In this document: positions 11,287-59,120 of the stretch, one piece after another
Layout of the letters: each line of letters opens with the position of its first letter
Position numbering within the stretch: the first letter of the stretch is position 1
Source: Asanoa iriomotensis
GTDB taxonomy: Bacteria > Actinomycetota > Actinomycetes > Mycobacteriales > Micromonosporaceae
Direction: 5' to 3'
DNA: 64,000 nt
NCBI RefSeq assembly: GCF_016862515.1
Contig: NZ_BONC01000022.1
Span: 1 to 64,000 of the forward strand
Notes under the pieces: model-generated
The model's database searches: none
The model's input: only the letters and a program-made list of their open reading frames with translations
What the model was told of the DNA's origin: nothing
Made by a program: the position numbers and the translations under genes

Positions 11287-11304
11287 CACTACTTGATCGA
11301 GTAG
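11287..11304. promoter_or_regulatory. Cluster palindrome 1 (ACTACT-N6-AGTAGT)
   Basis: ACTACT-TGATCG-AGTAGT lies 124 bp upstream of haloperoxidase 1 and 84 bp upstream of the divergent secreted-protein gene. It belongs to a set of eight related inverted repeats in this region and is probably an operator serving both genes. Confidence 0.65.
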
Positions 11305-11387
11305 TCGATACTACCCGTGCCGACATTGCCGCGCGCAGATCGTCCAGGCAAGGATGGATCAAAGAAATCCAATATACGGAGGTAAAT

Positions 11388-12290
11388 ATGCGGACGGCAA
11401 TCCGGGCCGCTGCCGCGCTCCTGGTGGCGGTCGCGGCGGGCGCCTTCGTCGCGCCGGCGGCGGCCCAAGCCGCCCCGGCGCGCACCGGCGATGCGCAGTG
11501 CGAGGTGGTCCCCGTCGTCGACGGCGCCGACACCTTCACCTCGCCCGCCTCGGTCGCGTCGGGGGTGCGCACCTTCCAGGTGACGACCGCGGACCCGACC
11601 GGCATCGTGCTGGGGCTGTTCCGGCTCGACGAGGGCGTCGACATCGACGACTTCGTGGGGCTGCTGCGGGTGGCCTTCGCCGGCCAGGGCCAGGAGCGGG
11701 TCGAGGCGGGCATCGCGGTCGACGCCCAGTCCACATTGCTCGGCGGAGTCGCCGCGATAGTGGGCCGCCCGGCAACGTTCACGCAGACGCTGGTGCCCGG
11801 CACGTACTACCTGATCAACTACCGGGACATCCTGGCCAACCCGAACGGCGCCGTCGGCTTCCGACCGCTGACCGCGACCACCCACTGGGCACCGTGCGCA
11901 CCACCGGTGCCGCGCGCGACGGTCTCGATGATCGACACGCCCGACGGCCCGCGCTACCTGGCACCCACCACGATGCAGCAAGGGGCACCGATCCTGGTCG
12001 CCAACCTCTCGGGCCGGATCCAGGAGGCGGTGATCCGCCCGGTCGGACCCAACGTGACCGCCGCGGAGATCGCGCAGTTCTTCCAGGCGGTCGACAACGG
12101 TCAGCCGCCGCCGAGCTTGCCCTTCGTCGGCCTGCTGCCGCAGGGCATGCCGGTCATCGACTCACCGCTCGCGGCGATCATCCAGCCGAACTTGGCACCG
12201 GGCCGGTACGCCCTGCTCTCGTTCCTGCTCGACGACCAGGGCGTCCGCTACGCCGCACAGGGCACGGTCGTCGTCTTCGACGTCAACTGA
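11388..12290 (+). CDS. Secreted protein of unknown function
   Basis: 300 residues from the ATG at 11388, with GGAGG at 11378-11382. A signal peptide ends near APAAAQA-AP. The mature part has Cys in QCEVV and WAPCAPP, possibly a disulphide, and two similar beta-rich halves; the phrases LVPGTYYLINYRD and LAPGRYALLSFLLDD look like repeated strand/turn units. I do not recognise the family. It shares the haloperoxidase 1 promoter region and palindrome, so it may be coexpressed and act outside the cell with the exported haloperoxidase. A degenerate copy of its 3' end lies about 450 bp downstream. It ends at a strong hairpin. Confidence 0.75.
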   Translation: MRTAIRAAAALLVAVAAGAFVAPAAAQAAPARTGDAQCEVVPVVDGADTFTSPASVASGVRTFQVTTADPTGIVLGLFRLDEGVDIDDFVGLLRVAFAGQGQERVEAGIAVDAQSTLLGGVAAIVGRPATFTQTLVPGTYYLINYRDILANPNGAVGFRPLTATTHWAPCAPPVPRATVSMIDTPDGPRYLAPTTMQQGAPILVANLSGRIQEAVIRPVGPNVTAAEIAQFFQAVDNGQPPPSLPFVGLLPQGMPVIDSPLAAIIQPNLAPGRYALLSFLLDDQGVRYAAQGTVVVFDVN

Positions 12291-12305
12291 CCTGACACCA
12301 CGAGC

Positions 12306-12341
12306 GCGGCGAGTTGTACGCAGATGCGTACAGCTCGCCGC
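12306..12341 (+). terminator. Hairpin terminator of the secreted-protein gene
   Basis: A 16-bp stem beginning GCGGCGAG with one G-T wobble, followed by TTT on the plus strand, 16 bp after the stop codon. A near-identical hairpin occurs at 12740-12775. Confidence 0.75.
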
Positions 12342-12739
12342 GTTTCCGCGCACCAAGACCACCGCCGCGATCGGGACACCGGGCGGGTCCATCGCACACC
12401 GCGCGAACCTGCCGTGCAGCACCGCAATCGGCTCGGGGCTCGCGGCTCCCGACGGGCGGCTCCCGGCTCGCGGCCCGCGGCCCGCGGATCGCAGATCGCA
12501 GATCGCGGCCCCCACGGATCGCAGATCGCGGCCCTCACGGATCGCAGATCGCGGCCCTCACGGATCGCAGATCGCGGCCGCACGGGTCGCGGCCCGCACG
12601 GGTCGCGGCTCGCGGCTCGCGGCTCGCGGCTCGCCGCGATCATCCCGGCGAACTGGCGCCCAGACCGGGACGCCCTGCTCGACGACGAGGCGTGGGCTGC
12701 GCCGCAGACGGCATGGTCGTCTGACCTCATCCCACGAGC

Positions 12740-12775
12740 ACGGCGAGCCGTACGCACATGCGTACAGCTCGCCGT
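12740..12775 (-). terminator. Hairpin terminator of the first MmpL gene
   Basis: A 17-bp stem starting ACGGCGAG with one mismatch and a 2-nt loop, 12 bp beyond the MmpL stop codon. It is a near copy of the hairpin at 12306-12341. Confidence 0.65.
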
Positions 12776-14991: not shown

Positions 14992-15109
14992 GGGTCTCAC
15001 TCCCTCGGGGTCGCTTTGTCTCGACGTGCCTACGATGTGGTGGATCGCCGCGGTGTGACATCCGCCCGCGAAATGCCTGGCACGTCACACCACGAAACGA
15101 GGAGTGGCC

Positions 15110-16794: not shown

Positions 16795-16827
16795 CGATAG
16801 CCTACTTTCGCCGAAGGGTTGGGGAGG

Positions 16828-18414: not shown

Positions 18415-18426
18415 GCCGAAAGCTCC

Positions 18427-20542: not shown

Positions 20543-20719
20543 CTACGAACGCTCGGTGCGTTCCACGCGCGGTGAGATCGGCACGGCGACGACGGCCGGC
20601 CATAGTGGACACAGTCCGACCAGGACCGACCCGTCGCCGACGACGATCAGGTTCCACGGCCGGTCCGGCGGGCGCGGCCGAGGAACCCGCTCGGCCGGCC
20701 CGTCCACCGTGGACGTCAT
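20543..20719 (-). CDS. Small protein coupled to the StrR-type regulator gene
   Basis: 58 residues. The ATG overlaps the regulator stop codon as ATGA, with GAGGAG upstream, the hallmark of translational coupling. The protein is Pro/Arg-rich at the N-terminus with a hydrophobic centre (LIVVGDGSVLVGLCPLWPAVVAVPI) and no recognised domain. Function unknown. Its start context is better than its composition, so it may be real but is unproven. Confidence 0.45.
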   Translation of the reverse strand: MTSTVDGPAERVPRPRPPDRPWNLIVVGDGSVLVGLCPLWPAVVAVPISPRVERTERS

Positions 20720-21711
20720 TCCTGCTCCTCGAGCTCGTTCGCGAGCGCGAGCCAGGCTCCGGCGCACGACCGGGCGAGCTCCGCCACGGACTTGCGCCAA
20801 TGGGGCGGCACGGCGCCGATGAGCTCACCCCACTGCGTGGGCTCGACGACGTGTGCGTCGACCCAGCGGACGAACGCGCGCCCGTTCTCGGCGTACTTCA
20901 CCGCGGGATCCTTGATCAGGTTGCCCCGCACCGACGGCCACTGGACGTTCTGCCGCGCGCCGACCGTCCTGCCGCGCGGCTGCGTCCCGGTCTCGTCGCC
21001 CACCGGCGGCCGCCGGTCGGCGGGGCCGCGCTGGAGCGGCAGCACCGGGTCGTGGCCGGCCTGCAGGCGCGCCCGGACGTCCCGCGCCGTACCGACCGAG
21101 ACGCCGGCCTCCTCGGCGATGGCCCGCAACGGCGCGTCGGGCTTCATGGCGATGACCGCGCTGGCCCGTCGCCGCCCCGACGATCCGTCGATCGGGCGGA
21201 CGCGCCCGTCCCGGCCCACCCTGGCGCCGTCGAGCCCCGCGGGCAGCACCATGCGACGCCGGATCGAGCTCACCGTGGTGGGCGACAGTCCGGTCGCGGT
21301 GGCGACGGCCCGGTCCGACCACTGTGGATACAACTCGAGCACGCGGGTGGCGGCCGACTCCCGATCGGCCAACGAGAGCGGCAGGCCGTGCGTGATGTTG
21401 GCGCCGACCGAGTGCAGGAACGCCGCCGCGTCGTCGCCGTCGAAGAACGTGACGGGGATGGTCTCGTCGCCGCGGAGCTTCGCCGCGCGCAACCGGTGCA
21501 TCCCGTCGATCACCCGCATCGTGCCGCGGTGCACGACGATCGGCGGCAGCTCCCGCACCGCCACCAGCAGCAGCACGTGCTCGGGATTCTCCCCGGCCAG
21601 CCGCGGCGAGTCGCCTGGTAACAACGACGACACCGAGACCCAGACGGGGTCATCCGGCGTACGCGCCAGGACTATGCTTTCTGCTTGCGGCTCCTCGACC
21701 TTGCTCGACAT
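20716..21711 (-). CDS. StrR/NovG-type ParB-like pathway-specific activator
   Basis: 331 residues from the ATG at 21711 (an in-frame GTG at 21723 is possible). A ParB/sulfiredoxin-like N-terminal part contains RVIDGMHRLRAAKLRGD and FFDGDDAAAFLHSV; the HGLPLSLADR segment follows, then a helix-turn-helix (WSDRAVATATGLSPTTVSSI). This order is that of StrR, NovG and glycopeptide-cluster regulators, which activate antibiotic genes by binding GTTCNACTG-N11-CNGTNGAAC sites. Exactly such a site occurs at 52131-52159 before the first LuxR gene. Codon 31 is TTA (21619-21621), so translation may depend on bldA tRNA. A cluster palindrome lies 140 bp upstream. Confidence 0.88.
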   Translation of the reverse strand: MSSKVEEPQAESIVLARTPDDPVWVSVSSLLPGDSPRLAGENPEHVLLLVAVRELPPIVVHRGTMRVIDGMHRLRAAKLRGDETIPVTFFDGDDAAAFLHSVGANITHGLPLSLADRESAATRVLELYPQWSDRAVATATGLSPTTVSSIRRRMVLPAGLDGARVGRDGRVRPIDGSSGRRRASAVIAMKPDAPLRAIAEEAGVSVGTARDVRARLQAGHDPVLPLQRGPADRRPPVGDETGTQPRGRTVGARQNVQWPSVRGNLIKDPAVKYAENGRAFVRWVDAHVVEPTQWGELIGAVPPHWRKSVAELARSCAGAWLALANELEEQE

Positions 21712-21850
21712 CCGGACACTCACCTATCAGTAGGTAGGGTTGGTGTATGGACGGCAGTCGATACTGCGGGCAGTGCAGCCTGCCTTCGGAATCATCGCCA
21801 GCGGGCCTCGCCAAGAGCAACACCGGCCGGGGTCGAGCGTGGGTAGTTGT

Positions 21851-21872
21851 GCACTACTCGATCAGGTAGTGC
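21851..21872. promoter_or_regulatory. Cluster palindrome 2
   Basis: ACTACT-CGATCA-GGTAGT with matching GC/GC outer bases makes a 22-bp imperfect palindrome. It overlaps the last codons of the DAHP synthase gene and lies 140 bp upstream of the StrR-type gene, which it probably controls. The nearby GCAGTCGATACTGC (21754-21767) is a second short palindrome in the same gap. Confidence 0.6.
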
Positions 21873-29919: not shown

Positions 29920-29937
29920 ACTACTCGCGTAGGTAGT
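29920..29937. promoter_or_regulatory. Cluster palindrome 3
   Basis: ACTACT-CGCGTA-GGTAGT lies 103 bp upstream of the SDR gene and 81 bp upstream of haloperoxidase 2. Its position in the shared promoter suggests joint control of both. Confidence 0.65.
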
Positions 29938-36289: not shown

Positions 36290-36290
36290 G

Positions 36291-39522: not shown

Positions 39523-39728
39523 CGCCTCCCCGAAGTGGTACGCGGTCGACAGTAAATGCGGCTTCGACCGTCCGGCTACGACGCGGACGGGTGGTGCCGG
39601 CTATTCAGCGGTTTACGCCACACGGCCGCGTTAACGCGAATACGGGATGGTGCTTTCACGTCATGTGCGGACGCCTTTCGCCACCGCAGTATCGGGATGC
39701 GACCGAATCTCGTGCGAGGGGAAGCGAC

Positions 39729-41741
39729 ATGGACTGTACGGATTCGCGCACGGCTGACGCACTGGCGGGGCTCGGAACCGACGGGCGCGGCTTCGCCCTG
39801 GTCTACCGGCCGAGCGCGGGCCCGGGCGCCGGCGTGACGGTCCTGACCGGAGACGTGTCGTGTGTGGACAGTCTCGCCGACCTGCCGTTGCCCGGCGAGC
39901 CCGCCGACGGGGCGGCGCACGACCTGCTCGTGGCCGTCCCGTACCGGCAGATCACCGAACGCGGCTACGACTGCCACGACGACGGCGCACCGCTGCTGGC
40001 GATGCGGGTGCACGGGCAGGCCGAGCTGACCCGCGGGCAGGCGCTCGCGTTTCTGCCGGACGACGACGTACCGGTGTCGGGCGCGGGTTTCGACATCAGC
40101 GACGAGGACTACGCGGCGATCGTCAAGCGGGTCGTCGCGGACGAGATCGGGCAGGGCGCCGGGTCGAACTTCGTCATCCGGCGCTCCTACGTCGCCCGGC
40201 TGGACGACTACTCGGTCCGCGCGGAGCTCGCCATCTTCCGCCGGCTGCTGGCCGGCGAGGCCGGGTCCTACTGGACGTTCCTGTTCCACACCGGCGCGGG
40301 GACCTTCGTCGGTGCGTCGCCGGAGCGGCACGTCAGCATGGTCGACGGCACCGTCTCGATGAACCCCATCAGCGGGACCTACCGGCACCCGCCCGCCGGA
40401 CCGGAGATCTCCGGGCTCCTGGAGTTCCTGAACGACCCGAAAGAGGCGAACGAGCTCTTCATGGTCGTCGACGAGGAACTGAAGATGATGGCCCGCATGT
40501 GCGCGGTCGGCGGCCAGGTGCACGGTCCGTTCCTCAAGGAGATGGCGCGCCTGACCCATTCCGAGTACGTCCTCACCGGCCGCAGCGACCTCGACGTGCG
40601 CGAGGTGCTGCGGGAGACGTTGCTCGCACCGACCGTCTCCGGCAGTCCGCTGGAGAACGCGTTCCGGGTCATCACCCGCCACGAGGCGACGGGTCGCGGC
40701 TACTACGGCGGCGTCCTCGCGCTGGTCGGCCGCGACGCCGGCGGCGGCCGCACCCTGGACTCCGCGATCATGATCCGGACCGCCGAGATCGGCGGTGACG
40801 GCACGCTGCGGCTGGGCGTCGGCGCCACGCTGGTCCGCGACTCGAACCCGGAGTCCGAGGTGGCCGAGACGCGGGCCAAGGCGGCGGGCATGCTGGCGGC
40901 TCTCGGCCTCGGTGCCGCGCCCTCTGCCGGCGCGCCCGTCACCGAGGCACGGATCTCACCTGCCGAGCATCCGCTGGTACGCGTCGCGCTGGAGACCCGC
41001 AACGCCACGCTGTCCCGCTTCTGGCTGGACGGCGCGCACCGGCGAGCCCCGGTGCCGGAGCTGGCGGGCCGCCACGTGCTCGTGGTCGACAACGAGGACC
41101 TGTTCATGGGGATGCTCGGCCACCAACTGCGCGCGCTCGGCCTGCGGACGACGCTCACGCGGTTCGACGACCCGCTGTTCCCGCAGGGCTACGACCTGGT
41201 CATCGTCGGCCCCGGCCCGGGCGACCCGGGCGACGTGACCGACCCGCGGATGGCGACGCTCCGCTCACTGACCCGTGAGCTGCTCGCCGGCACCGTGCCG
41301 TTCCTGTCGATCTGCCTCGGGCACCAGATCCTCGCCGCCGAGCTGGGCTTCGACGTGGTCCGGCGCGGGGCACCCAACCAGGGCGTCCAGAAGCGGGTCG
41401 ACCTGTTCGGCCGGCCGGAGCTCGTGGGTTTCTACAACACCTACGCCGCGCGGTCGGCACACGACGTCGTGCGCCACGGTCAGCGCGGACCCGTCGAGAT
41501 CAGCCGCAACCCGGAGACCGGGGAGGTGCACGCCCTGCGCGGCGCGGGCTTCCGGTCGGTGCAGTTCCACCTCGAGTCGATCCTCACCCAGCACGGACCG
41601 CGGATCCTCGGTGACCTGCTCGTCTCGCTGCTCGGGGACGCCGAGGTCAGCGCATCCTGGGAGCGACCAGTCCGGACTCGTACGCGAAGACCACGAGCTG
41701 AGCACGGTCCCGCGCCCGCACCTTCGTCATGGCACGGTTGA
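39729..41741 (+). CDS. 2-Amino-2-deoxyisochorismate synthase (PhzE-like)
   Basis: 670 residues from the ATG at 39729 (GAGGGGAAG upstream). The N-terminal chorismate-binding domain (MSTase) includes FVGASPERHVSM, NPISGTYRHP and SAIMIRTAEI; the C-terminal class I glutamine amidotransferase has the nucleophile in SICLGHQILA and His-Glu in QFHLES. This fused order is that of PhzE, which aminates chorismate at C2 without losing pyruvate. It starts the 3-hydroxyanthranilate route completed by the PhzD-like and DhbA-like genes. It is transcribed away from the aspartate kinase operon, and its last 95 bp overlap the response-regulator gene. Confidence 0.92.
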   Translation: MDCTDSRTADALAGLGTDGRGFALVYRPSAGPGAGVTVLTGDVSCVDSLADLPLPGEPADGAAHDLLVAVPYRQITERGYDCHDDGAPLLAMRVHGQAELTRGQALAFLPDDDVPVSGAGFDISDEDYAAIVKRVVADEIGQGAGSNFVIRRSYVARLDDYSVRAELAIFRRLLAGEAGSYWTFLFHTGAGTFVGASPERHVSMVDGTVSMNPISGTYRHPPAGPEISGLLEFLNDPKEANELFMVVDEELKMMARMCAVGGQVHGPFLKEMARLTHSEYVLTGRSDLDVREVLRETLLAPTVSGSPLENAFRVITRHEATGRGYYGGVLALVGRDAGGGRTLDSAIMIRTAEIGGDGTLRLGVGATLVRDSNPESEVAETRAKAAGMLAALGLGAAPSAGAPVTEARISPAEHPLVRVALETRNATLSRFWLDGAHRRAPVPELAGRHVLVVDNEDLFMGMLGHQLRALGLRTTLTRFDDPLFPQGYDLVIVGPGPGDPGDVTDPRMATLRSLTRELLAGTVPFLSICLGHQILAAELGFDVVRRGAPNQGVQKRVDLFGRPELVGFYNTYAARSAHDVVRHGQRGPVEISRNPETGEVHALRGAGFRSVQFHLESILTQHGPRILGDLLVSLLGDAEVSASWERPVRTRTRRPRAEHGPAPAPSSWHG

Positions 41742-42309
41742 TGTGGGTCTTGGCGGTCAGCGGGCTGATCACCATGTGGTCGGCGATCTCCTCGTTGGAC
41801 AGGCCCTGCGCCGCCAGCGCGACGGCCTCACGCTCGCGGTTGGTCAGCTCGTCCATCCCCGAACCGGGCTCGACGCCCAGCGGTTGGGCGACGTACCGGC
41901 TGATCAGCATCCTGGTGATGGACGGTGCGAGCAGCGCGTCGCCGCGCGCGGCGACGCGCACGGAGTGCAGCAGGTCCTCCGGCTCGATGTCCTTGACCAG
42001 GAACCCGGCGGCGCCGGCGCGCAGTGCGTGGAACACATATTCGTCGAACCCGTAGTTGGTCAGGATGACGACGCGGACACCCGCGAGGTCGGGGTCGGCG
42101 GCGATCCGCCGGGTCGTCTCGATGCCGTCCATCACCGGCATCTGGATGTCGACGAGCGCGAGGTCGGGCTGGTGCTCCCGGGCGAGGGACAGGCCCTCCT
42201 TGCCGTTGGCGCCCTCGGCCACCACCGTGATGTCGTCCTCCGCGTCGAGCAGCGTGCGGAAGCCGTTGCGCAGGAGCGGCTGGTCGTCGAGCAGCATGAT
42301 GCGGATCAT
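41647..42309 (-). CDS. NarL/LuxR-family response regulator
   Basis: 220 residues. The receiver domain has the phospho-acceptor Asp in LALVDIQMPVMDG and the Lys in GFLVKDIEPE; the C-terminal HTH is LTNREREAVALAAQGLSNEEIADHM. Its ATG overlaps the stop of the kinase gene (ATGA), so the two form a pair. NarL-type regulators bind short inverted repeats, often ACT/AGT-like; a palindrome of that type lies before the kinase operon, so this is a candidate binder of the cluster palindromes. Confidence 0.93.
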   Translation of the reverse strand: MIRIMLLDDQPLLRNGFRTLLDAEDDITVVAEGANGKEGLSLAREHQPDLALVDIQMPVMDGIETTRRIAADPDLAGVRVVILTNYGFDEYVFHALRAGAAGFLVKDIEPEDLLHSVRVAARGDALLAPSITRMLISRYVAQPLGVEPGSGMDELTNREREAVALAAQGLSNEEIADHMVISPLTAKTHINRAMTKVRARDRAQLVVFAYESGLVAPRMR

Positions 42310-43424
42310 GAGATCTGTGCCACCGGGAGCTCGGCCTGGACGGTGAACCCGCCCTCGTGCCGGGGTTCCGCCCGCAGGCGGCCGCCGAGAGCGGTGACGC
42401 GTTCGCGCATGCCCACCAGCCCGACCCCGGGCGTCGCGGCGGAGCCCGGCTTGGCCGTGCCGTCGTCGTCGACCCGGATGGTGAGCCCGTCGGGCAGGTA
42501 GGCGATCCGGATCGACGCCGTGGCCGAGCCGGAGTGCCGAGCGGTGTTGGTCAGCGACTCCTGGATGATCCGGTAGGCGGTGCGGTCGACGGCGTCGGGC
42601 ACGCCCTGCCGGTCACCCTCGACGGTCAGCGTGGTGGTCAGCCCGATGCCGCGCGCACCCGCCAGGAGCTCCGGGAGGTGGTCGAGCCCGTGTGCGGGCG
42701 ACTCGTTCTCGTCGCGGAGCGTCTCCAGCGTCGCCCGCAGCTCCCGGCTCGCCTCGCGGCTCGCCTGCTGGATCGCGAGCAGGGACTCCGCGACCTCCTC
42801 ACCGCGCTTGCGGGCGATGTGGACCGCGACCTCGGACTGCACCTTGATGATCGAGATCTGATGGGTGAGCGAGTCGTGCAGCTCCCGCGCGATGTGCAAC
42901 CGCTCCTGGGTGGCGCGGAGCCGCGCCGTCTCCTCGCGGGTGCGCTCCGCCTCGTCGGCCCGCCGCTCCGCCAGCCGCAGCGCCTCACCCGCGGCGGCGG
43001 CAGCCACCAACCAGGCGATCTCGAGGACCTGGCGCGCCTGGGCGAGCGCCTCGGCGGCGGGGCCGTCGAGGGGCGACGCCATGATCGCCAGCGGCAGACA
43101 GACGAGCATGACCAGGCTCGCCACCAGGGAGACGATCCGGTGGCCGGCCCGGACGGCGGCATAGACCGCCCACAGGTAGCCGGCGGCGGGCACGTCGAAG
43201 CCGATCGCGTTGTAGCCCAGCACGCACAGACCCGTGACGACCAGGACGGGGATCGGCGCCCACCGGCTGATGCCCAGGGCGAGGCCGCTGATCACCAACA
43301 GGACGTAGCCGAGCACGTCGAGGTCGGTGCCGGGGTGGTCGGAGGCCAGCGCGACGATCAACAGCGCCGTCGCGATGCAGATCGCGACGGCCCAACTCCG
43401 CAGCCGAACCCGAACAGTGGACAT
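42306..43424 (-). CDS. Two-component sensor histidine kinase (HisKA_3 type)
   Basis: 372 residues from the ATG at 43424, chosen because GAGGA precedes it; the ATG at 43436 has no such site. Five or six membrane helices fill the first 150 residues without a large extracellular loop, then a coiled segment leads to the phosphoacceptor His in HIARELHDSLTHQISIIK and an HATPase domain (NTARHSG, GVGLVGMRERV). It is typical of NarX/DesK-like kinases sensing membrane or lipophilic signals, so a terpenoid product or membrane stress may be sensed. Confidence 0.9.
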   Translation of the reverse strand: MSTVRVRLRSWAVAICIATALLIVALASDHPGTDLDVLGYVLLVISGLALGISRWAPIPVLVVTGLCVLGYNAIGFDVPAAGYLWAVYAAVRAGHRIVSLVASLVMLVCLPLAIMASPLDGPAAEALAQARQVLEIAWLVAAAAAGEALRLAERRADEAERTREETARLRATQERLHIARELHDSLTHQISIIKVQSEVAVHIARKRGEEVAESLLAIQQASREASRELRATLETLRDENESPAHGLDHLPELLAGARGIGLTTTLTVEGDRQGVPDAVDRTAYRIIQESLTNTARHSGSATASIRIAYLPDGLTIRVDDDGTAKPGSAATPGVGLVGMRERVTALGGRLRAEPRHEGGFTVQAELPVAQIS

Positions 43425-43491
43425 GGCCGTCCTCATGGTGGCACTTTAGCGGCACCGGGCCGCACGGGAATCCTGCCTGCGAAGGAATGCC

Positions 43492-43513
43492 GACTACTGC
43501 ATCCACAGTAGTC
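43492..43513. promoter_or_regulatory. Cluster palindrome 4 (N8 type)
   Basis: GACTACTG-N6-CAGTAGTC, a perfect 8-bp inverted repeat (ACTACT-N8-AGTAGT when counted as the others), 68 bp upstream of the kinase start and 45 bp upstream of the divergent membrane gene. The placement suggests autoregulation of the two-component system. Confidence 0.7.
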
Positions 43514-44496: not shown

Positions 44497-44520
44497 CCAC
44501 GACTGCGTTTGCAGTAGTGG
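44497..44520. promoter_or_regulatory. Cluster palindrome 5 (N8 type)
   Basis: CCACGACTGC-GTTT-GCAGTAGTGG, with one mismatch across 10-bp arms, 65 bp upstream of the membrane protein gene ending at 44007 and just past the prenyltransferase stop. A further half-site, GCAGTAGG, follows at about 44531. Confidence 0.6.
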
Positions 44521-44541: not shown

Positions 44542-45432
44542 TCAGATGAAATTCACCGCGTTGGGCTTCCATTTATAGTGCGACTCGAGCTTGTAGTACT
44601 CACCGCGCGGGGTCAGCGCGACGCCGTACACGAATTTGCGGTCGTCGCCGCCGTAGGGGACGCTGCGCACGAACTTCTCGATCTCGGGTTCGACGGGAAC
44701 GGGGAGTTTCGTCAGGTCGGTGGTGGCGGCGGCATAGCAGATGCGTTCGATTTTCGGCGAGTCCCAACCGAGCGTCACGTAGAGCCCGAACGCCTTCTCA
44801 CCGAGTTTGAGCATCTGCTCGCTGGGCGTCGCCATTCCGATTTCCCGGAGGGTCGACAGAATCGTGTCCGGCGCGAAGCTCTCGGCCGGCACCTCGTTGA
44901 AGTAGACGTTCACGGTCCGGTTGGCATAGTCGATGCCCAGCACGCCGACCCGGTCGTCCAGGCCGTGGCGCGCGAAGAACCCGACGTTCTCGGCGAGGCT
45001 GCGCGGCATCGACGGTATGTCGGCGAGCTTCGACGCCTCCTGCAGGTCGTCCGGTGTGAACGCGCCGTAGATCTTCTTGAACCCGCCGACGACGCCGAAG
45101 TCGATGCCGTGGCTCTCGACGAAACACCGGTCGTGGATGTCCGCGAGCAGGGTGCCGACCGGGTGGTCCGTCTTCGGGGTGAGGCCGTGCGACAGGGCGA
45201 CGGCGTACGGGTCCCGGACGTCCGGGTGGGTCCTGAAGCGACAGTCCAACTCCCCCGCGTGCCGCAGCGCGGTGGCCACCCGGAACGCGACCACGGCGGC
45301 GGGATGCGAGAACGCGTCCTCGTACGTCGACAGGATGGGCCAGACCGTGTCCCGGTGGCAGGCCACGTCCAGCAGCCGGGCCGACTCCTCGACGGTGGCG
45401 TACAGCTCCGCCATTTCCGATGTTCCTGACAT
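44542..45432 (-). CDS. ABBA-fold aromatic prenyltransferase (DzmP/NphB-like)
   Basis: 296 residues from the ATG at 45432, with GGAGGGG upstream. No Asp-rich motif or membrane helix. The sequence follows the soluble ABBA (NphB/CloQ/phenazine prenyltransferase) pattern: GIDFGVVGGFKKIYGAF, VGVLGIDYANRTVNVYFN, LYVTLGWDSPKIERICYAA and a C-terminal YYKLESHYKW strand. DzmP, which farnesylates the amide nitrogen of dibenzodiazepinone in diazepinomicin biosynthesis, belongs here. It is the last gene of the mevalonate operon and so is made together with its prenyl donor. The N- versus C-prenylation outcome cannot be read from sequence. Confidence 0.88.
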   Translation of the reverse strand: MSGTSEMAELYATVEESARLLDVACHRDTVWPILSTYEDAFSHPAAVVAFRVATALRHAGELDCRFRTHPDVRDPYAVALSHGLTPKTDHPVGTLLADIHDRCFVESHGIDFGVVGGFKKIYGAFTPDDLQEASKLADIPSMPRSLAENVGFFARHGLDDRVGVLGIDYANRTVNVYFNEVPAESFAPDTILSTLREIGMATPSEQMLKLGEKAFGLYVTLGWDSPKIERICYAAATTDLTKLPVPVEPEIEKFVRSVPYGGDDRKFVYGVALTPRGEYYKLESHYKWKPNAVNFI

Positions 45433-45445
45433 CACCCCTCCAGGG

Positions 45446-52038: not shown

Positions 52039-52058
52039 CACTACTCGCGCGAGTAGTG
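52039..52058. promoter_or_regulatory. Cluster palindrome 6 (perfect)
   Basis: A perfect 20-bp palindrome containing ACTACT-CGCGCG-AGTAGT, 75 bp upstream of the mevalonate operon start and 144 bp upstream of the divergent LuxR gene. It is the best-formed member of the set. Confidence 0.75.
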
Positions 52059-52130
52059 CGGGCTAGCACCGGCATCCCCGCCGCACCGCCCCGGATGCAC
52101 GTATAACTGAGTGGACCCGTGCGCCGCGCC

Positions 52131-52201: not shown

Positions 52202-54586
52202 ATGAATGCCTTGGTGGGACGTGATCACATTCTGTCCTCATTGGCCGGACAATTGGAAGCCACCCGGCACGGAGCCGGCGGTTGTGTGGTGGTCGACGGG
52301 CCGTTCGGCGTCGGCAAGACCCATGTGTTGAAGGCCGCCGGGATCGAGGGGGCCGAACGCGGCCTGACCGTGGTCGCGGGCCGGACCAGCATCACGGACC
52401 AGCCGATCCCCATCCACCTGCTGATCAGTTTCCTGCGGCACGCGACCGCCGACCGCGCCGACCTCGACGACCTGGTGCGCCCGGGCCGGAACCCGTTCTG
52501 GCTGATGGACCGCGTCGGCGAACTGGCGGCCGTCGCGGCACGCCGCCACCCGCTCGTGGTCGTCCTCGACGACGCCCAGCGCATCGACGACGTCAGCGCA
52601 CTGGCGTTGCGCGCGCTCGTGCAGTCGCTGGCCTCGTCGCCGGTGCTCTGGCTGCTCGCCCGGCGACCGGCCCGCACCGAGCCGCTCACCCAGTCGGTCT
52701 TCGAGTGGTTGATCGACAACGCGGCCACGCGCGTCACGCTCGGGCCGCTCGAGGACGAGGCCGTCGCCGACCTGTGCGCGTCCTTCCTCGGCGCCAGGCC
52801 GGACGCCTCCGTGCTCGGCTGGGCCGCCCGCTGCGGCGGCAACCCGCGGCTGATGGAGAACGTCTTCAGCGCCCTCATCAAGGCCGGACAGATGATCATC
52901 ACCGACGGCGCGGCCTCCGTGGTGGCGGAGCGCCTGCCCGACGGCGTGCGCACGATGGTGCACGACCTCCTGGACGGGTTCTCGCCCGCGGTCCGCCAAC
53001 TCCTCGTCGCCGGCGGCCGGATCGGGGCCGCCTTCACGGCCGAGGAGGCGGCGGCAGAACTGGGCGACCCGTCCCTCGACCTGTCCTCGGCCGTCGACGA
53101 AGCCGTGCGGGTGGGCCTGGTCCGGCGCGACGGCGCTGCCCTCACGTTCCACCACGAGGTGATCGGGGAGGCGCTCCGGCCCGCGGTGTCGTCACCCGCT
53201 CCCCTGCCGCGGCCGTCCCCACCCACGACGGCCGCCTGCGGCTGCGCGGACCTGACGACGGAGGCCATCTCCCTGGTGGCGCGCGACGAGGATGGTCCAC
53301 GCGCACTCGCCCGTGCCCTGCGACTGCTCGCCGGCGCGGGCCGCGGCGCGCAGGCCCACCGCCTCGCGGACCTCGCCCTGCGTACCGGCTTCGAGGCGGC
53401 GGCCGAGGCGCGCCTGGTTCTCGACCTGGTGCCCGGGCTGCGGGACGCCGACGGTCACGGCATGGCGGCGACGTTGCTGACGCGGACGTTGGCGCGGCCG
53501 GACATCTGCGAGCTGGACCGGGCCAAGCTCAACCGGGCCCTCGCGGAGACACCGCACGCCGGCCGGGCCAGCTGGGACGGCGGGCGGCACTCCTGCGAGC
53601 GACCACTGTGGACGTGGCTGGTCCGGGCCCTGGTCGCCGCCGACCAGTTCGAGGAGGCGACGGCCGTCCTCGACGCGGTCCGGCGGGAGGCGAACGAGCG
53701 GGGCACCACGGTGTCGGCCGCCCTGTGGCACGGCCACCGGGCCGACCTGTTGCTCGCTCTCGGGCAGCTCGACGAGGCGCGGACGGCAGCCGGCGCGGCG
53801 GTCCGGCTGGCCGACCGGTCGGCACCGGCCGACTCCGTGCCGGCCCGCCTCGTCCTGGCCGGCCTCAGCCTGCACGACGGCGACCTGGTCTCCGCCGGCG
53901 ACCAGCTCCGCGGCGTCGAACAGGGCGGCGGCGTGGCGACGGCGGACAGGGCGCGCCTCGACTGGACCCTCGCGCGGTTCCACGCCGCCGGCGGTCGCCC
54001 GTCGACGATGGTCTTCGACGATCCGCTGCTGTTCACCGAGACGCCGACGGCGGCAGCGGCGCTGGTCCGGCAGGCGAAGGAGCTCGGGCTCCGCACGGAG
54101 GCGCAGGCGGCGGCCGACGTAGCCGCACAGGTCGCGCGGCGCAATCCCGCTGTGCAGTCGTTGGCCGCCGGTGCCGCGCACGCCGACGGCGTCCTGCGCG
54201 ACGACCCGGCCGCCCTGCACCGCGCGGCGGACCTCTACCGGCTCGCCGGGCGTCCGCTGGCGGCGGGCGCCGGACTCGACGACGCGGCGCGGGTGGCCCG
54301 CGGCGGCGGGGTGCGACTCCTCGGGACGAAGCGTCCCGACGCGCACAGCGTGCGCCGGCTCGGTCCGGAACGGCCGAAGTCAGGCTGGGAGAGCCTGACC
54401 ACCGCGGAGCTGAGGGTCGTGCGCGCGATCGTCGACGGCAGGACGAACAGGGAAGCCGCGAGCATGCTGTTCCTGTCGCCCCATACCGTCGACACCCATC
54501 TGCGGCGGGTCTTCTCGAAGCTCGCGATCAAGAGCCGCGTGGAACTGACCAAGAGCTTCATCGCGTACGAAGCGCGGGTCAGCTAG
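52202..54586 (+). CDS. LAL-type LuxR transcriptional regulator 1
   Basis: 794 residues from the ATG at 52202. A full large ATP-binding LuxR protein: Walker A GPFGVGKTHV near residue 32, Walker B LVVVLDDAQRIDD, a helical repeat middle, and the C-terminal LuxR HTH (LTTAELRVVRAIVDGRTNREAASMLF). Such regulators usually activate antibiotic operons. It has a StrR operator and palindrome 6 in its promoter, placing it below the StrR-type activator. It converges with the second LuxR gene, overlapping by 8 bp. Confidence 0.92.
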   Translation: MNALVGRDHILSSLAGQLEATRHGAGGCVVVDGPFGVGKTHVLKAAGIEGAERGLTVVAGRTSITDQPIPIHLLISFLRHATADRADLDDLVRPGRNPFWLMDRVGELAAVAARRHPLVVVLDDAQRIDDVSALALRALVQSLASSPVLWLLARRPARTEPLTQSVFEWLIDNAATRVTLGPLEDEAVADLCASFLGARPDASVLGWAARCGGNPRLMENVFSALIKAGQMIITDGAASVVAERLPDGVRTMVHDLLDGFSPAVRQLLVAGGRIGAAFTAEEAAAELGDPSLDLSSAVDEAVRVGLVRRDGAALTFHHEVIGEALRPAVSSPAPLPRPSPPTTAACGCADLTTEAISLVARDEDGPRALARALRLLAGAGRGAQAHRLADLALRTGFEAAAEARLVLDLVPGLRDADGHGMAATLLTRTLARPDICELDRAKLNRALAETPHAGRASWDGGRHSCERPLWTWLVRALVAADQFEEATAVLDAVRREANERGTTVSAALWHGHRADLLLALGQLDEARTAAGAAVRLADRSAPADSVPARLVLAGLSLHDGDLVSAGDQLRGVEQGGGVATADRARLDWTLARFHAAGGRPSTMVFDDPLLFTETPTAAAALVRQAKELGLRTEAQAAADVAAQVARRNPAVQSLAAGAAHADGVLRDDPAALHRAADLYRLAGRPLAAGAGLDDAARVARGGGVRLLGTKRPDAHSVRRLGPERPKSGWESLTTAELRVVRAIVDGRTNREAASMLFLSPHTVDTHLRRVFSKLAIKSRVELTKSFIAYEARVS

Positions 54587-56453
54587 CCGCACCGTGCGCG
54601 TGCGCCGATCGGTATTGCGCGTCGTCCTCCATCGAGTAGATCGCGGCCGTGCCGGTGTAGGTCGCCGCGCCACGGACGAGCTCGACCCGCGTGCCGATGC
54701 CCAGCTTCTTGTAGATCTTTCTCAGGTGGTAGTTGACCGTGTGCTGCGACAGGTGCACCTGCTTGGCGATCTGCCGGTTGGTCAGGCCCACGCTCACCAG
54801 GTAGGCGATGCGCTGCTCCATGTCGGACAGCGTCGACCAGCAGGCGGCCAGTGGCGAGCCGGCGGCCTCGGAGTACGGCCCGGCGGCCTGCCGGCCATCC
54901 ACCGGGGCCTTGGCCGCGTAGAGCTTGGCGAGCTCCTCGGTCGCCAACGCCACCGAGATCGGGTCGGGCGACTGCACGATGATCAGCGACAACGCCGCCG
55001 GAGCGCTGTTGGCCAGCGCGTTGGCGTGCATGGCGGTCAGCCCGACGATCGAGACACCGGGGTTGTCGCGCGCGAGACCGTCCACCGTCTCCAGCACGCT
55101 TCGCTCGAGTCGCGAATCGCCGACGTCACGCGCGAGCAGCACCAGGAATGCGGCGGCACTCGGCACCTCGATGTAGAGACTGCGCAACGTCGCGAGACAG
55201 CGGTATCTGTCGGACAACAGTTGGGCGCCCGCGTGGGGTCCCGCTTTCTTGACCGCGATGAGCACATCGGTCCACGCGTATTGCGCGGAATCCAATGCCG
55301 CGTGGCCCGCCAGGCCCTCCTGCGCCAGTTTGGAATATCCTTCGGCCCTGGGCAGGTCGCCCATATAGAACGAGGCGATGCTGAGCACGGAGAAGGCCAA
55401 CGGCCGGAGCATCGGAACCGCGTCGCGCCCTATCGCGGCGGTCGCCGACGCCGCCTCACGGCGCGCGTCTCCGATGCGGCCGGCTTGGAGATAAAGCCGC
55501 GACCTCATCACCGCGGGCGCGGCCGTCCAGACCGGCTCGGGAAGTGCGCGCAATCCGTCCTCGACGTCACCGATCAGCGATTCGGCTTTGTCGAACTCGC
55601 GGAGATTGGCGAACTTGCCGGCCAGCGGAAGCTGGAAATGCAGCCGCCACACCGGATCGACGCCTTCGCTGGAGCGCACGGCGGAGCGCCCCAGGCTGAT
55701 GCCCTCGGCCAGCCGTCCCGCGCGCCAGCGCAGGTTGGACCGGGTGGTGAGTGCCATGGCCGCAGCGATGTCGCCCGGTCGGCTGCCGCGCTCCCCCAGG
55801 ATCCTCGCCGCGACCCGCTCGGCTTCGTCGGCGTCGAACAGCGAGTAGCCAAGCAGCAGCGACGCTTCCGCATCGAGCCGGGCGGCGGGCGAACTGGCCG
55901 GGTTCGCCAGCACCTCGCGCGCGACGCGGACACCGGCGGCCGCGTCGCCGCCGATCACCAGGCTGTGCGCGGGCGAGCACGATCCGCCGGCGGGTGCTCT
56001 GACCTGGGTGGACGCCGGGCTCGGGCGCTCGCTTTGCCATGGAACCTGGTCGTCCTTGTGCTCGTGCAACCCGATCGCCTCGCGCCGCAGCGTGTCGCGG
56101 ACCGGCGCGGGCATGGAGTCGATGGTCCCCTGGAGGAGAAAATCGCTCCTGAACGCCAACCGGTGCGCCGCGGCGACGATGAACCCGGCGGCCATCGCCT
56201 CTTCCAGCGGCGAGAGCAACGTGGCGGCCGGTCGGTCGAGCATTCTGCAGACGTCCTCCAGCAGAAAGGACCGTCCCAACGCGGCCGCGACCTTCAGAAA
56301 GTGCTGACAGCCCGCGCTCAGCACATTCAGTCGCCGCAGGGTCGCCCGGTCCCCGTCGTCGAGCGACCCGCCCGACACCGCCGCCCTGCCATTTGTTACA
56401 TTACTTTCGGTCGATTCTGGAATTCCATTCTCCGACGCGCGTCCCGTTGTCAT
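54579..56453 (-). CDS. LuxR-family regulator 2, lacking the ATP-binding domain
   Basis: 624 residues from the ATG at 56453 (GGGGGGAT upstream). The protein begins in what is normally the region after the NTPase: ATLRRLNVLSAGCQHFLKVA and LEDVCRMLDRPAATLLSPLEEA match the post-ATPase part of LAL proteins. TPR-like helices follow and the HTH is LSDMEQRIAYLVSVGLTNRQI. No P-loop is present, and the upstream 380 bp contain none in any frame I could recognise, so it is probably a naturally short LAL relative. It may partner with or antagonise regulator 1. Confidence 0.87.
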   Translation of the reverse strand: MTTGRASENGIPESTESNVTNGRAAVSGGSLDDGDRATLRRLNVLSAGCQHFLKVAAALGRSFLLEDVCRMLDRPAATLLSPLEEAMAAGFIVAAAHRLAFRSDFLLQGTIDSMPAPVRDTLRREAIGLHEHKDDQVPWQSERPSPASTQVRAPAGGSCSPAHSLVIGGDAAAGVRVAREVLANPASSPAARLDAEASLLLGYSLFDADEAERVAARILGERGSRPGDIAAAMALTTRSNLRWRAGRLAEGISLGRSAVRSSEGVDPVWRLHFQLPLAGKFANLREFDKAESLIGDVEDGLRALPEPVWTAAPAVMRSRLYLQAGRIGDARREAASATAAIGRDAVPMLRPLAFSVLSIASFYMGDLPRAEGYSKLAQEGLAGHAALDSAQYAWTDVLIAVKKAGPHAGAQLLSDRYRCLATLRSLYIEVPSAAAFLVLLARDVGDSRLERSVLETVDGLARDNPGVSIVGLTAMHANALANSAPAALSLIIVQSPDPISVALATEELAKLYAAKAPVDGRQAAGPYSEAAGSPLAACWSTLSDMEQRIAYLVSVGLTNRQIAKQVHLSQHTVNYHLRKIYKKLGIGTRVELVRGAATYTGTAAIYSMEDDAQYRSAHAHGAAS

Positions 56454-56835
56454 AATCCCCCCGAGATTATGCGCCATACTCTTACTGGACAGCCCCCGAA
56501 TTTGATCATCGTAGCACAGGTGTTGTCGGCCATCTATCTCGAAGTTGCCAGTCCACGGCCTGGCTGTTGTCAGGATTCACGGCGAGGCCGTAGAATGCCG
56601 GTCAGCCTCTGCCGATATCGGACAGAAGCAAGCAATTGCCATCATCGATTCCCCACCCCCATCTGCGTGTGACGCCGGTTACTCTATTCGACGTCTATAG
56701 AGCGCGGTCTACAACAGATGGAGTACCGCGCCCACAGTAGTCGATGGCACAAATTGTCTTCATCCGTATGGCGACGTGGGCAAGAACCGTCACGAGCATT
56801 GAGTCGTTGGGTTCAATGACGCGTGAGGAGAAGAG
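56454..56835. promoter_or_regulatory. Long divergent promoter region with palindrome 7
   Basis: 382 bp between LuxR regulator 2 and the second MmpL gene, visibly more AT-rich than its surroundings near 56400-56520. No gene is supported in it. At 56721-56742 it contains AGTACC-GCGCCCAC-AGTAGT, a degenerate member of the N8 palindrome class, 94 bp before the MmpL start. Confidence 0.55.
56721..56742. promoter_or_regulatory. Cluster palindrome 7 (degenerate, N8 type)
   Basis: AGTACC-GCGCCCAC-AGTAGT: the right half-site is exact and the spacer matches palindrome 4 at its 3' end (CCAC), but the left half has two mismatches. It would control the second MmpL exporter. Confidence 0.45.
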
Positions 56836-59004
56836 ATGCCTACCGAGACCCGCCGCACGGACGGGGCCTTGGCGGCGCTGGCCCGGTTCTGTTTCCGGCG
56901 ACGCCGCCTGGTCCTCCTGACCTGGGTCGTCGGCGTGCTGGCGCTGGCGTTCCTCGGCTTCCGCTTCGGCGCCCCCTCCGACAACGCCTACTCCGGTGGC
57001 GACTCCCACTCGGCCAAGGCGCAGGCGCTGATCGAGCAGCACTTTCCCGACCGGCAGGGCGACACCCTCACGCTCGCGATCAAGACGACGAACGGCATCG
57101 ACGACCCCGCCACCCGGCAACGGATCGAGCGGGTCATCGCCGACCTGACGGCCTCACCCGTCACGGGACCGGTGACCTCGCCCTACGAGGATCCGACCCT
57201 GGTGACGCAGGATCGCCGGATAGCCCGGACAACCGTCCCGCTGACCGACATGGACGTGCCGAAGGCCGAGGTCAAGCCGCTCGTCGACATCGTCAAGGAC
57301 GCGTCCGGCGACGGCCTGACGCTGGGGCTCGGCGGTGACAAGGCCGAGAAGGCGGAGACACCGCCGCAGGGTCCGGCCGAGGCGGTCGGCCTGCTCACCG
57401 CCGCGGTGATCCTGTTCATCGCGTTCGGTTCGCTGGTCGCGATGGGCCTGCCGCTCGTCGTCGGCCTGATGGCGGTCCTCGGCGGCATCGGCGTGATGAA
57501 GCTCGTCGGCCATCTCGCTCCCTCGCCCGACTTCACCGTGCTCGTCGCCGTCCTGATCGGGCTCGGCGTCGGCATCGACTACGCCCTGTTCATCCTGACC
57601 CGCTACCGCGACAGCCTGCACGAGGGCGACGACCCCGAGCGCGCGACGGTCAAGGCCATCGCCACCGCGGGCCACGCGGTCCTGTTCGCGGGTACGACCG
57701 TCGTCATCGCCCTGCTGGGCCTGATCGCCATGGGACAGCGGATGATGACCGGTGTCGCGATCGGCGCGTCGACGGCCGTCCTCGTCACGATGATCGCCGC
57801 GGTGACGCTCCTGCCGGCGTTCCTCGGCTTCATCGGCCGCCGGATCGACTCCCTGCGCCTCCCCCGCCGCACTCCCCGCGCGAGCGCCGCCCCGTCGGCG
57901 GACCGCCGGACGCTGGCCGAACGGTGGGCGGGCGTGGTGCAGCGCCGGCCCCTGGTCGCCGCACTGCTCGCCGGCGCGATCCTGCTCGTCCTCGCCTCGC
58001 CGGCGTTGTCGATGCGGTTGAGCCTGCCGGACGCCAGCGTGCAGCCGCACGACCGCAGCAGCTACACCTCGCACCAGATCCTCTCCGAGGGATTCGGTCC
58101 CGGTTACGGCGCGCCGATGGTCTTCGCGGCCAGGGTCGACTCGCCCTCCACCGACCTGGGTCCCGTCGTCGAAGCGGTCCGGAGCACCGACGGCATCGCG
58201 TTCACCACGCCACCCGCGGTCAGCCAGGACGGTCAGGCCGCCATGTTCATGGCCTTCCCGAAGACCGGCTACCAGGACGAGGCGACCACGGACCTGGTGC
58301 ACGAGCTCCGCGACGACGTGCTGCCCGGCGCGGCCGGCGGCACCGAGGTCTTCCTGGGCGGCCCGAACGCCGGCGCGATCGACTTCGCCGAGGAGACCAG
58401 CTCCCGCCTGCCCCTGATGATCACGGTCGTGATCGTGCTGTCGCTGCTCCTGCTGGTGCTGCTCGTCCGGTCGGTGACGATCGCGCTGCAGGCGGCCGTG
58501 ATGAACCTGCTCTCGATCGGCGCGGCGTACGGCGTACTCGTGGCAATCGTCCAATGGGGATGGTTGGGCTCGGCTCTTGGCTTCCCCACTGAGATGCCGA
58601 TCACGACCTGGGTTCCGATGATGATGTTCCCGCTGCTGTTCGGCCTCTCGATGGACTACGAGGTCTTCCTGATCTCGCGGATCCGCGAGGAGTACGAACG
58701 CACCGGCGACACCCGCCTGGCCGTCACCCGCGGCTTGGCCAAGACCGCGAAGGTGATCACCGCCGCCGCGGCCATCATGATCGCCATCTTCACGACGGCC
58801 GTGCTCGGCCCCGACGTATCCGTGAAGCAGATCGGTCTCGGCATGGCGATCGCGGTGCTCGTCGACGCCACCATCATCCGGATGATCCTCGTGCCGGCGG
58901 TCATGGAACTCTGCGGCGACGCCAACTGGTGGATGCCCGGACGCCGGTCACGGAAGATCGCCTCGGCACCCCCGGCCGAGGTCGAGGAAGCGGCAAGAGT
59001 CTGA
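56836..59004 (+). CDS. MmpL-family RND exporter 2
   Basis: 722 residues, GAGGAGAAGAG before the ATG. It has two RND halves: GLGVGIDYALFILTRYRDSLHEG in the first and LFGLSMDYEVFLISRIREEYERTG in the second supply the paired Asp-Tyr proton-relay signatures; the N-terminal helix FRRRRLVLLTWVVGVLALAFL is typical. Adjacent to the regulators and preceded by a cluster palindrome, it is the better candidate for exporting the lipophilic meroterpenoid or conferring self-resistance. It ends at a strong hairpin. Confidence 0.9.
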   Translation: MPTETRRTDGALAALARFCFRRRRLVLLTWVVGVLALAFLGFRFGAPSDNAYSGGDSHSAKAQALIEQHFPDRQGDTLTLAIKTTNGIDDPATRQRIERVIADLTASPVTGPVTSPYEDPTLVTQDRRIARTTVPLTDMDVPKAEVKPLVDIVKDASGDGLTLGLGGDKAEKAETPPQGPAEAVGLLTAAVILFIAFGSLVAMGLPLVVGLMAVLGGIGVMKLVGHLAPSPDFTVLVAVLIGLGVGIDYALFILTRYRDSLHEGDDPERATVKAIATAGHAVLFAGTTVVIALLGLIAMGQRMMTGVAIGASTAVLVTMIAAVTLLPAFLGFIGRRIDSLRLPRRTPRASAAPSADRRTLAERWAGVVQRRPLVAALLAGAILLVLASPALSMRLSLPDASVQPHDRSSYTSHQILSEGFGPGYGAPMVFAARVDSPSTDLGPVVEAVRSTDGIAFTTPPAVSQDGQAAMFMAFPKTGYQDEATTDLVHELRDDVLPGAAGGTEVFLGGPNAGAIDFAEETSSRLPLMITVVIVLSLLLLVLLVRSVTIALQAAVMNLLSIGAAYGVLVAIVQWGWLGSALGFPTEMPITTWVPMMMFPLLFGLSMDYEVFLISRIREEYERTGDTRLAVTRGLAKTAKVITAAAAIMIAIFTTAVLGPDVSVKQIGLGMAIAVLVDATIIRMILVPAVMELCGDANWWMPGRRSRKIASAPPAEVEEAARV

Positions 59005-59018
59005 CCCTTCCTCGAGGA

Positions 59019-59075
59019 GGAGCGCGGGGGGTCCCCCTGGCCATTGTCCCTGGCCGTTGTCCCCGCGCTCCTTTT
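59019..59075 (+). terminator. Terminator after MmpL exporter 2
   Basis: An 11-bp stem (GGAGCGCGGGG / CCCCGCGCTCC) with a 31-nt loop is followed by TTTT, starting 15 bp after the stop codon. Confidence 0.75.
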
Positions 59076-59085
59076 CGATGTCCGG

Positions 59086-59120
59086 ACTACAAGCCCGGGT
59101 AGTGGTCAACTACCCGGGCT
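59086..59120. promoter_or_regulatory. Cluster palindrome 8 with nested hairpin
   Basis: ACTACA-AGCCCG-GGTAGT (59086-59103) is followed directly by a mirrored ACTACCCGGGCT (59109-59120), which pairs with AGCCCGGGTAGT as a perfect 12-bp stem around GGTCA. It lies 95 bp upstream of the SARP gene. It may be an operator, a transcript hairpin, or both. Confidence 0.55.

Follow-up and report, generated by a model that had tools for sequence, protein, structure and literature searches.

Two classes of inverted repeats at the promoters of a diazepinomicin-like gene cluster of Asanoa iriomotensis, and the LuxR-type regulators that may read them

Introduction

Do the inverted repeats of the ACTACT/AGTAGT family that recur before the genes of one cluster of Asanoa iriomotensis serve one regulator or two, and which ones? 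The stretch under study, called the window here, comprises bases 1-64000 of contig C22 (NZ_BONC01000022.1; 109,433 bases), part of a genome (G000) of 8,569,428 bases in 187 contigs. Judged by its predicted genes, the window is a diazepinomicin-like antibiotic cluster. A first-pass annotation of the same letters had listed eight such repeats, five with a spacer of 6 bases and three with a spacer of 8 bases. It had raised two regulators or two binding modes as the reason for the two spacers, and had named a NarL-type response regulator encoded in the window as the best candidate.

We find that the two sets of putative operators most likely correspond to two regulators. The best explanation of the sequence comparisons, and in our view a probable one, is that each set serves as the operators of its own cluster-specific LuxR-type regulator. 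LAL1, a protein with an ATPase domain and a GerE domain, would read the 6-spacer class, and the response regulator would read the 8-spacer class.

Results

The Sites Are Concentrated in the Window

The eight sites are real and beyond chance. At two mismatches or fewer, the window contains five 6-spacer sites where shuffled windows lead one to expect 0.13, and three 8-spacer sites where 0.14 are expected; the region-specific family described at first pass therefore stands, with starts shifted by 0-2 bases (Table 1). Both hexamer arms are perfect only at 11288, 43493 and 52040, and the remaining five sites carry one or two mismatches. The distance of 45-145 bp to the gene starts, as first given, is roughly right except at its lower end. 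Measured to the likely starts, the distances span about 19 to 145 bp, the site at 29920 lying 22 bp before SDR1 and the site at 44499 overlapping the longest open reading frame (ORF) of DUF6220. The longest ORFs of VHPO1 (9676-11289) and FPPS (50876-52075) overlap putative operators as well; a likely start of VHPO1 is at 11163, with GGAG ahead of it, and the homology of FPPS begins well inside 52075.

Over the whole genome, ACTACTN6AGTAGT with at most one mismatch occurs at six places, four of them in the window and both perfect ones among these (binomial P = 4.6e-8). The 8-spacer pattern with at most two mismatches occurs at five places, three of them in the window (binomial P = 4.1e-6), and at one mismatch or fewer the three window sites are the only ones in the genome. 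Since we took both patterns from sites in the window itself, these P values are flattered, and the independent test comes from related clusters. In the motif search that the first-pass annotation had called for, the concentration in the window is there, but the genome totals lie below those of the reversed-pattern control (6 against 22 for the 6-spacer class; 5 against 20 for the 8-spacer class). The signal is thus one of concentration, not of genome-wide excess.

The 6-Spacer Class Is Conserved in Related Clusters

A scan of genome contigs with a prenyltransferase alignment gave 30 loci. Fourteen of them (L058-L071) are clusters of the same kind with both LAL1 and a second GerE-domain regulator, LuxR2; they come from Phytohabitans, Micromonospora, Actinocorallia, Actinomadura, Actinacidiphila and Streptomyces, and larger stretches of them were mapped. 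The other 16 loci have no LAL1 match within the stretch examined. The prenyltransferase loci of G015, G200, G373, G196, G008 and L072-L087 have no LAL1 match at 1e-8; without L072, L073 and L078 they form a control set of 584,887 bases.

We enumerated dyads of 4096 hexamers with 21 spacers (0-20) over the window and its 14 relatives (15 clusters, 1.154 Mb), keeping dyads with at least 8 sites. The initial enumerations were uninformative, being swamped by GC-rich codon patterns; the version that worked judged each dyad against the same hexamer, in the same codon phase, at its other spacers. It ranks CACTAC-N8-GTAGTG first, with 51 sites in all 15 clusters and an other-spacer mean of 1.08, and shifted forms of the same dyad follow. 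A weight matrix was built from 34 sites of the relatives, picked by their arms only. Its unselected bases are strongly biased all the same: C at 92% and G at 82% for the inner bases, and C at 86% for the outer base. In the window this matrix finds the five named 6-spacer sites (scores in Table 1) and nothing else above 4, and 40 kb of the same contig yield no match above 4. The control loci contain weak near-matches to the arms, no match for either class, and no 6-spacer matrix score of 15 or more. Moreover, the pattern ACTACYCRNNCGRGTAGT, taken from the relatives' sites and searched with at most one mismatch in the 19 whole genomes behind the loci, has 29 zero-mismatch places, every one inside a cluster of the 14 LAL1-bearing genomes and none in the five genomes that lack LAL1. 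Across 394 genomes of the class, matches to the 20-base form at one mismatch or fewer lie in the Asanoa genome and at one other place.

By these comparisons, the palindromic elements, which we take for operators, are genuine signals, conserved among related actinobacteria. One could argue that chance and base composition, with favourable hexamers picked afterwards, would leave genome totals no higher than the reversed control, as is the case here. The clustering in the window, the conservation in 14 relatives, the first rank in the enumeration and the empty control loci make this explanation hardly credible.

The Dyad May Occupy the Place of an Activator Site

In all 15 clusters a 6-spacer dyad separates LAL1 from FPPS or from the prenyltransferase gene, and in all 14 relatives one precedes AspK. 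At each of these promoters (15/15 for AspK, 15/15 for FPPS or the prenyltransferase) a -10-like hexamer, TANNNT, starts 22-23 nt past the dyad. An example is the window's 52040 dyad, which is followed at 22 nt towards FPPS by TACCGT and has an equivalent site in 14 of 14 relatives. Twelve of 30 other promoter directions examined show the same spacing, and by chance it is found at 0.13% of all positions and 0.53% of those in gaps between mapped genes. With the -10-like hexamer at this distance, the dyad centre would fall near -43 relative to the predicted starts, which is the place of a class II activator.

A second regular feature is a third half-site, ACTACCC, 4-5 nt after the dyad on the StrR side in all 11 clusters with a StrR gene (5 nt beyond the 21853 dyad in the window). 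It recurs at hyp1 in the window, 4 nt beyond the 11288 dyad on the hyp1 side, and in G397; at the SARP site at 59086; and, as GCTACCC, at two more sites. Overall it accompanies 16 of 56 sites, with a chance level per side of 0.12% over all positions and 0.27% in gaps.

A possible ninth site, which the first-pass annotation lacks, lies at 39578-39595, between AspK and PhzE. Found at three mismatches, it is proposed from its position and from a -10-like hexamer, TACTGT, that follows at 23 nt towards AspK.

Dyads of this kind might also be repressor operators, or structural elements such as hairpins and attenuators, and not activator sites at all. They are perfect or near-perfect inverted repeats, and a protein bound at -35 could equally block RNA polymerase. 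The 59086 dyad in particular overlaps a perfect 12-bp inverted repeat, AGCCCGGGTAGT-N5-ACTACCCGGGCT (59086-59120, with a 5-bp loop). We consider this reading improbable, given the near-fixed distance to the -10 hexamer, the dyad standing in the -35 place, the single dyad often shared by divergent genes, and the two spacers that each have their own preferred inner bases. As a separate matter, the repeat at 59086-59120 could also be a hairpin after MmpL2.

Several results for the 6-spacer class sit less well with the picture of a conserved activator operator. At AspK the window itself has only a degenerate site, to which the relatives' matrix gives a score below 4, and the standard -10 distance is found in only one of 10 StrR promoters examined. 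The SARP site at 59086 is weak, and no match precedes the SARP gene of G397. One-mismatch places of ACTACYCRNNCGRGTAGT occur outside the clusters too, with a reversed control as high or higher in G398, G400 and G415, and the reversed control of the 20-base form matched 12 of the 394 genomes.

The 8-Spacer Class Changes with the Response Regulator

The 8-spacer matrix was built from 8 sites before the sensor kinase gene (HK) and 8 before MmpL2 in the relatives, at matching positions among the three best dyads per gene. Outside this training set stand the three window sites, the HK of G398, which has no site, and the MmpL2 site of G401, which the finished matrix recovered. In profile, the class consists of a TACYGCR heptamer and its inverted copy, 2 bp apart (7-2-7 geometry). 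Among the 10 clusters whose response regulator is at least 76% identical, an 8-spacer site ends 92-95 bp before MmpL2 in all 10 and precedes HK in nine, at 56-59 bp in seven and at 68 and 88 bp in two, as measured by alignment start. The remark at first pass that the regulator's own operon has a site is borne out by the 43493 dyad, 57 bp before HK.

The other five clusters (G406-G410) have a response regulator of about 53% identity, and neither their HK nor their MmpL2 has an 8-spacer site (Fisher P = 3e-4 for MmpL2). TACGCN6GCGTA sites take over (nine exact ones), while the 6-spacer dyad is unchanged. The new dyad lies 94-95 bp from DUF6220, at the DUF6220/response regulator promoter, in five of five, and 149-151 bp from MmpL2 in four of five, that of G409 being one base off. 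No exact copy occurs in the other ten clusters, and spacers of 5, 7, 4 and 8 give 0, 4, 2 and 1 matches. The regulator helix differs in parallel: it reads TARTHVSH in these five regulators versus TAKTHINR or TAKTHVNR in the orthologous ones. G399 has two regulators, of 81% and 54% identity, the second with the helix TARTHVSR; the stretch from its second kinase to DUF6220 contains TACGTCGAAACGCGTA, which departs from TACGCN6GCGTA by one base.

Operators were replaced where the regulator diverged and the 6-spacer dyad was kept, which ties the response regulator to the 8-spacer class only. The first-pass suggestion of two regulators thus gains support, and its choice of the NarL-type response regulator survives for the 8-spacer class, not for the family as a whole. 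Could this regulator nevertheless bind both classes, in two modes? Half-sites of both classes contain TAC, both proteins concerned have GerE helices, and an 8-spacer site does stand in the promoter of the regulator's own operon. The idea is very hard to reconcile with the diverged clusters, where only one of the two operators was replaced, and with the inner bases, which are CG in one class and GC in the other; we give it little weight.

Some caution is due with the 8-spacer class as well. Its training sites were picked by position and were not always the best-scoring of the three, so that matrix scores at the HK and MmpL2 promoters are circular. At the lower cut of 13 the matrix gives scattered matches elsewhere in the relatives and an extra one in the window (62863-62882, 13.7). 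In G398, where HK follows the prenyltransferase gene, no site precedes HK. TACGCN6GCGTA with one mismatch matches scattered places in several clusters, which makes the G399 site suggestive only, and a second regulator of G401 (53%, helix TVKTYVSR) goes without an exact TACGC site. Finally, the five clusters with replaced operators are all from Streptomyces and may represent one event.

It is tempting to hypothesize, and we hold the odds to be about even, that two regulators with LuxR-type helices in one cluster use near-identical half-sites (ACTAC and TAC) and are kept apart by spacing (2 bp) and two inner bases. The five Streptomyces clusters would then display a natural specificity switch (TARTHVSH with TACGC versus TAKTHINR with TACYGC) under which the synthesis-side operators stayed fixed. 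If true, the switch predicts which helix residues read which bases. In L134 (G403), L138 (G404) and L120 (G400), a second 8-spacer dyad overlaps the conserved one before MmpL2, 14 bp upstream, so that the half-sites form chains.

Which Protein Reads Which Class

LAL1 combines an N-terminal ATPase and a C-terminal GerE domain in one large protein, and so belongs to the LAL family; its 794 amino acids fit the LAL size range. The response regulator belongs to the NarL/FixJ family, with a receiver, a C-terminal GerE helix-turn-helix and an adjacent HisKA_3 kinase, and at 167.4 of 250 bits it falls short of the NarL equivalog cut-off of NCBIfam. Both regulators are thus members of known families.

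We propose that a dimer of LAL1 binds the 6-spacer class, CCACTACTCGNNCGAGTAGTGG, where the dyad would stand in for the -35 element and be centred some 43 bp upstream of the transcription start. LAL1 would switch on the FPPS-mevalonate-prenyltransferase operon, the AspK-DeoC-DHQS operon, PhzE and the haloperoxidases, that is, precursor supply and assembly, and through the added third half-site the second-tier regulators StrR and perhaps SARP. The response regulator would bind the 8-spacer class, TACYGCN-NN-NGCRGTA, as a 7-2-7 site and control its own kinase-regulator operon and the membrane and export genes MmpL2, DUF6069 and DUF6220. The sites, their conservation, their near-fixed positions and their co-variation with the response regulator are direct observations; from these we infer the binding protein, the activation, a signal and the division between synthesis and export.

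The strongest competitor for the 6-spacer dyad is LuxR2, alone or as a heterodimer with LAL1. It has a GerE domain, its helix TVNYHLRK is unchanged in 14 of 14 relatives, and it is encoded near LAL1 in most mapped clusters. Indeed, LAL1 and LuxR2 occur together in all 15 clusters, which leaves sequence unable to separate the two and counts against a firm choice of LAL1. No 6-spacer site is listed in the promoter of LuxR2 itself, and an alignment of its upstream regions shows a conserved start, ATGACAACG, and no conserved dyad visible by eye. LuxR2 also lacks a recognised ATPase domain: only GerE passes the cut-off, so it is not classed as a LAL. Although none of these points is decisive, we regard LuxR2 as a rather unlikely reader. 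LAL1 is preferred, if weakly, because in 15 of 15 clusters the dyad lies in an intergenic region bordered by the LAL1 gene, with no dyad seen before LuxR2. In 396 genomes of the phylum, no LAL1 homologue at 1e-90 appears besides the window's own among the two candidates listed and scored per genome.

Three other proteins were considered as readers of the 6-spacer class and set aside. StrR went undetected in the stretches from four relatives (G399, G400, G403 and G404, the last on a truncated contig). SARP is about 69% identical in G397 and 36% in G401, and is not detected in 12 relatives. The response regulator is about 53% identical in G406-G410, yet the 6-spacer dyad there is unchanged.

Relation to Known Systems

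In class II activation by LuxR, a dimer of GerE-domain proteins binds a palindrome (the lux box) that is centred near -42.5 and extends into the -35 region. The 6-spacer dyad would have a similar position relative to starts that here are predicted ones. LAL1 differs from LuxR in having an ATPase domain, with no autoinducer domain found, and the site sequence differs too. Its N-terminal ATPase and C-terminal GerE domain are shared with SCO6993, a Streptomyces LAL, and with MalT; in the relevant passages of PMC9628970, MalT uses a short box, and for SCO6993 no consensus site could be predicted. The dyad proposed for LAL1, unlike these, is a sharp palindrome conserved in clusters of six genera. 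To our knowledge, sharp operators for LAL regulators seem to be scarce.

For the 8-spacer class, the closest parallel is NarL of Escherichia coli, whose sites, as the passages of PMC4549865 on them have it, are inverted heptamers spaced by 2 bp (7-2-7). The window regulator resembles it in its receiver and GerE domains, its HisKA_3 partner and its inverted TAC-starting heptamers 2 bp apart, and an engineered NarL site, TACCCCTAAAGGGGTA, has the same TAC-N10-GTA frame as the 8-spacer dyad (PMC4549865, same passages). Differences are the heptamer, TACYGCR here versus TACCCCT, and the missed equivalog cut-off. The proposed targets also differ from those of NarL: they belong to a biosynthetic cluster and comprise a kinase operon, MmpL and small membrane proteins.

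The accessible portions of the literature on diazepinomicin clusters, LAL regulators and NarL regulators hold no description of these operators or of the operator swap, and among the matches listed for ACTACTCG together with "regulator" none describes these operators. With an operator conserved over 15 clusters, one would have a direct means of waking silent clusters of the diazepinomicin type and could draw cluster borders from the regulon. The operator pair would let the avoidance of cross-talk between two related helix-turn-helix proteins be tested, and the natural swap would open the residue-base code of NarL-type regulators to experiment.

Gene Content of the Window

Pfam scans of the window point to a shikimate/chorismate-derived meroterpenoid cluster. 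The precursor genes comprise a class II DAHP synthase (DAHPS), a PhzE-like chorismate-binding plus GATase protein, an isochorismatase, DHQS II, a DeoC aldolase and an aspartate kinase (AspK); a mevalonate operon, an ABBA prenyltransferase, two VCPO-type haloperoxidases and MmpL transporters accompany them. A DzmP-type prenyltransferase, PhzE/PhzD-like genes, DHQS II/DeoC and mevalonate genes, the mark of the diazepinomicin type, are thus all found together. In the diazepinomicin (dzm) cluster of Micromonospora, as the passages of PMC3871700 on that cluster describe, HMG-CoA synthase adjoins the prenyltransferase gene and a two-component sensor gene lies close by. The window has nearly this arrangement, with an ABBA farnesyltransferase by HMG-CoA synthase and a two-component sensor nearby, and PhzE/PhzD-like genes are common to both. 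It differs in its two haloperoxidase genes, a word absent from the main text of PMC3871700, and in a Pyr4-type cyclase, UbiA and SARP; operators go unmentioned in the dzm passages of that paper.

MmpL1, the Pyr4-type cyclase and UbiA (12787-20507) and SARP (59198-61561) are, among the 15 clusters, present only in the window and in that of Phytohabitans suffuscus, at about 69-88% identity; an AMP ligase and a GGPP synthase are likewise mapped only in these two. We read the window as a core of the diazepinomicin type extended by a terpenoid module, and the extra genes suggest that its product is perhaps a different one.

Table 1. Putative operators and selected genes of the window. Scores are those of the matrix for the class concerned (PWM, position weight matrix, for the 6-spacer class).
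Feature	Coordinates	Strand	Context
6-spacer dyad ACTACTTGATCGAGTAGT	11288..11305	.	Between VHPO1(-) and hyp1(+); PWM 29.5
6-spacer dyad	21853..21870	-	130 bp before StrR-like gene; overlaps DAHPS stop; PWM 30.7
6-spacer dyad	29920..29937	.	Between SDR1(-) and VHPO2(+); PWM 27.3; same place in G397
Possible degenerate 6-spacer dyad	39578..39595	.	Between AspK(-) and PhzE(+)
6-spacer dyad ACTACTCGCGCGAGTAGT	52040..52057	.	Between FPPS-mevalonate-prenyltransferase operon(-) and LAL1(+); PWM 37.2
Weak 6-spacer dyad	59086..59103	+	Before SARP, with third half-site; PWM 10.1
8-spacer dyad ACTACTGCATCCACAGTAGT	43493..43512	.	57 bp before HK(-), 46 bp before DUF6069(+); score 25.2
8-spacer dyad	44499..44518	-	Before or at start of DUF6220(-); score 17.7
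8-spacer dyad AGTACCGCGCCCACAGTAGT	56722..56741	+	95 bp before MmpL2(+); score 25.4
StrR-like regulator	20716..21723	-	HTH_23 only in Pfam; the StrR name is the label of the first-pass annotation and ours; probable second-tier target
NarL-type response regulator, receiver + GerE	41647..42309	-	PF00072 5.5e-27, PF00196 5.2e-15; proposed 8-spacer reader
HisKA_3 sensor kinase (HK)	42306..43436	-	PF07730 9.9e-16; gene overlaps that of the response regulator, its partner
ABBA prenyltransferase (DzmP-type)	44542..45435	-	Query that located the related clusters
LAL1, AAA_16 + GerE (LuxR)	52202..54586	+	PF13191 3.4e-16, PF00196 1.1e-12; 794 aa; proposed 6-spacer reader
LuxR2, GerE regulator without recognised ATPase	54579..56477	-	Likely start 56453; alternative 6-spacer reader
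MmpL2 transporter	56836..59004	+	Proposed target of the 8-spacer class
SARP with AAA domain	59198..61561	+	Possible target

Two further observations concern neighbouring sequences. The Phytohabitans cluster (G397, L108-L111) has extra ABBA prenyltransferase-like stretches, 51-56% identical to the window's, near a NUDIX gene (joined coordinates 70961-74238). In the window, the gap between the convergent genes hyp1 and MmpL1 contains two similar inverted repeats about 435 bp apart (12305-12342 and 12740-12775), with GTACGCA-NN-TGCGTAC cores and longer arms.

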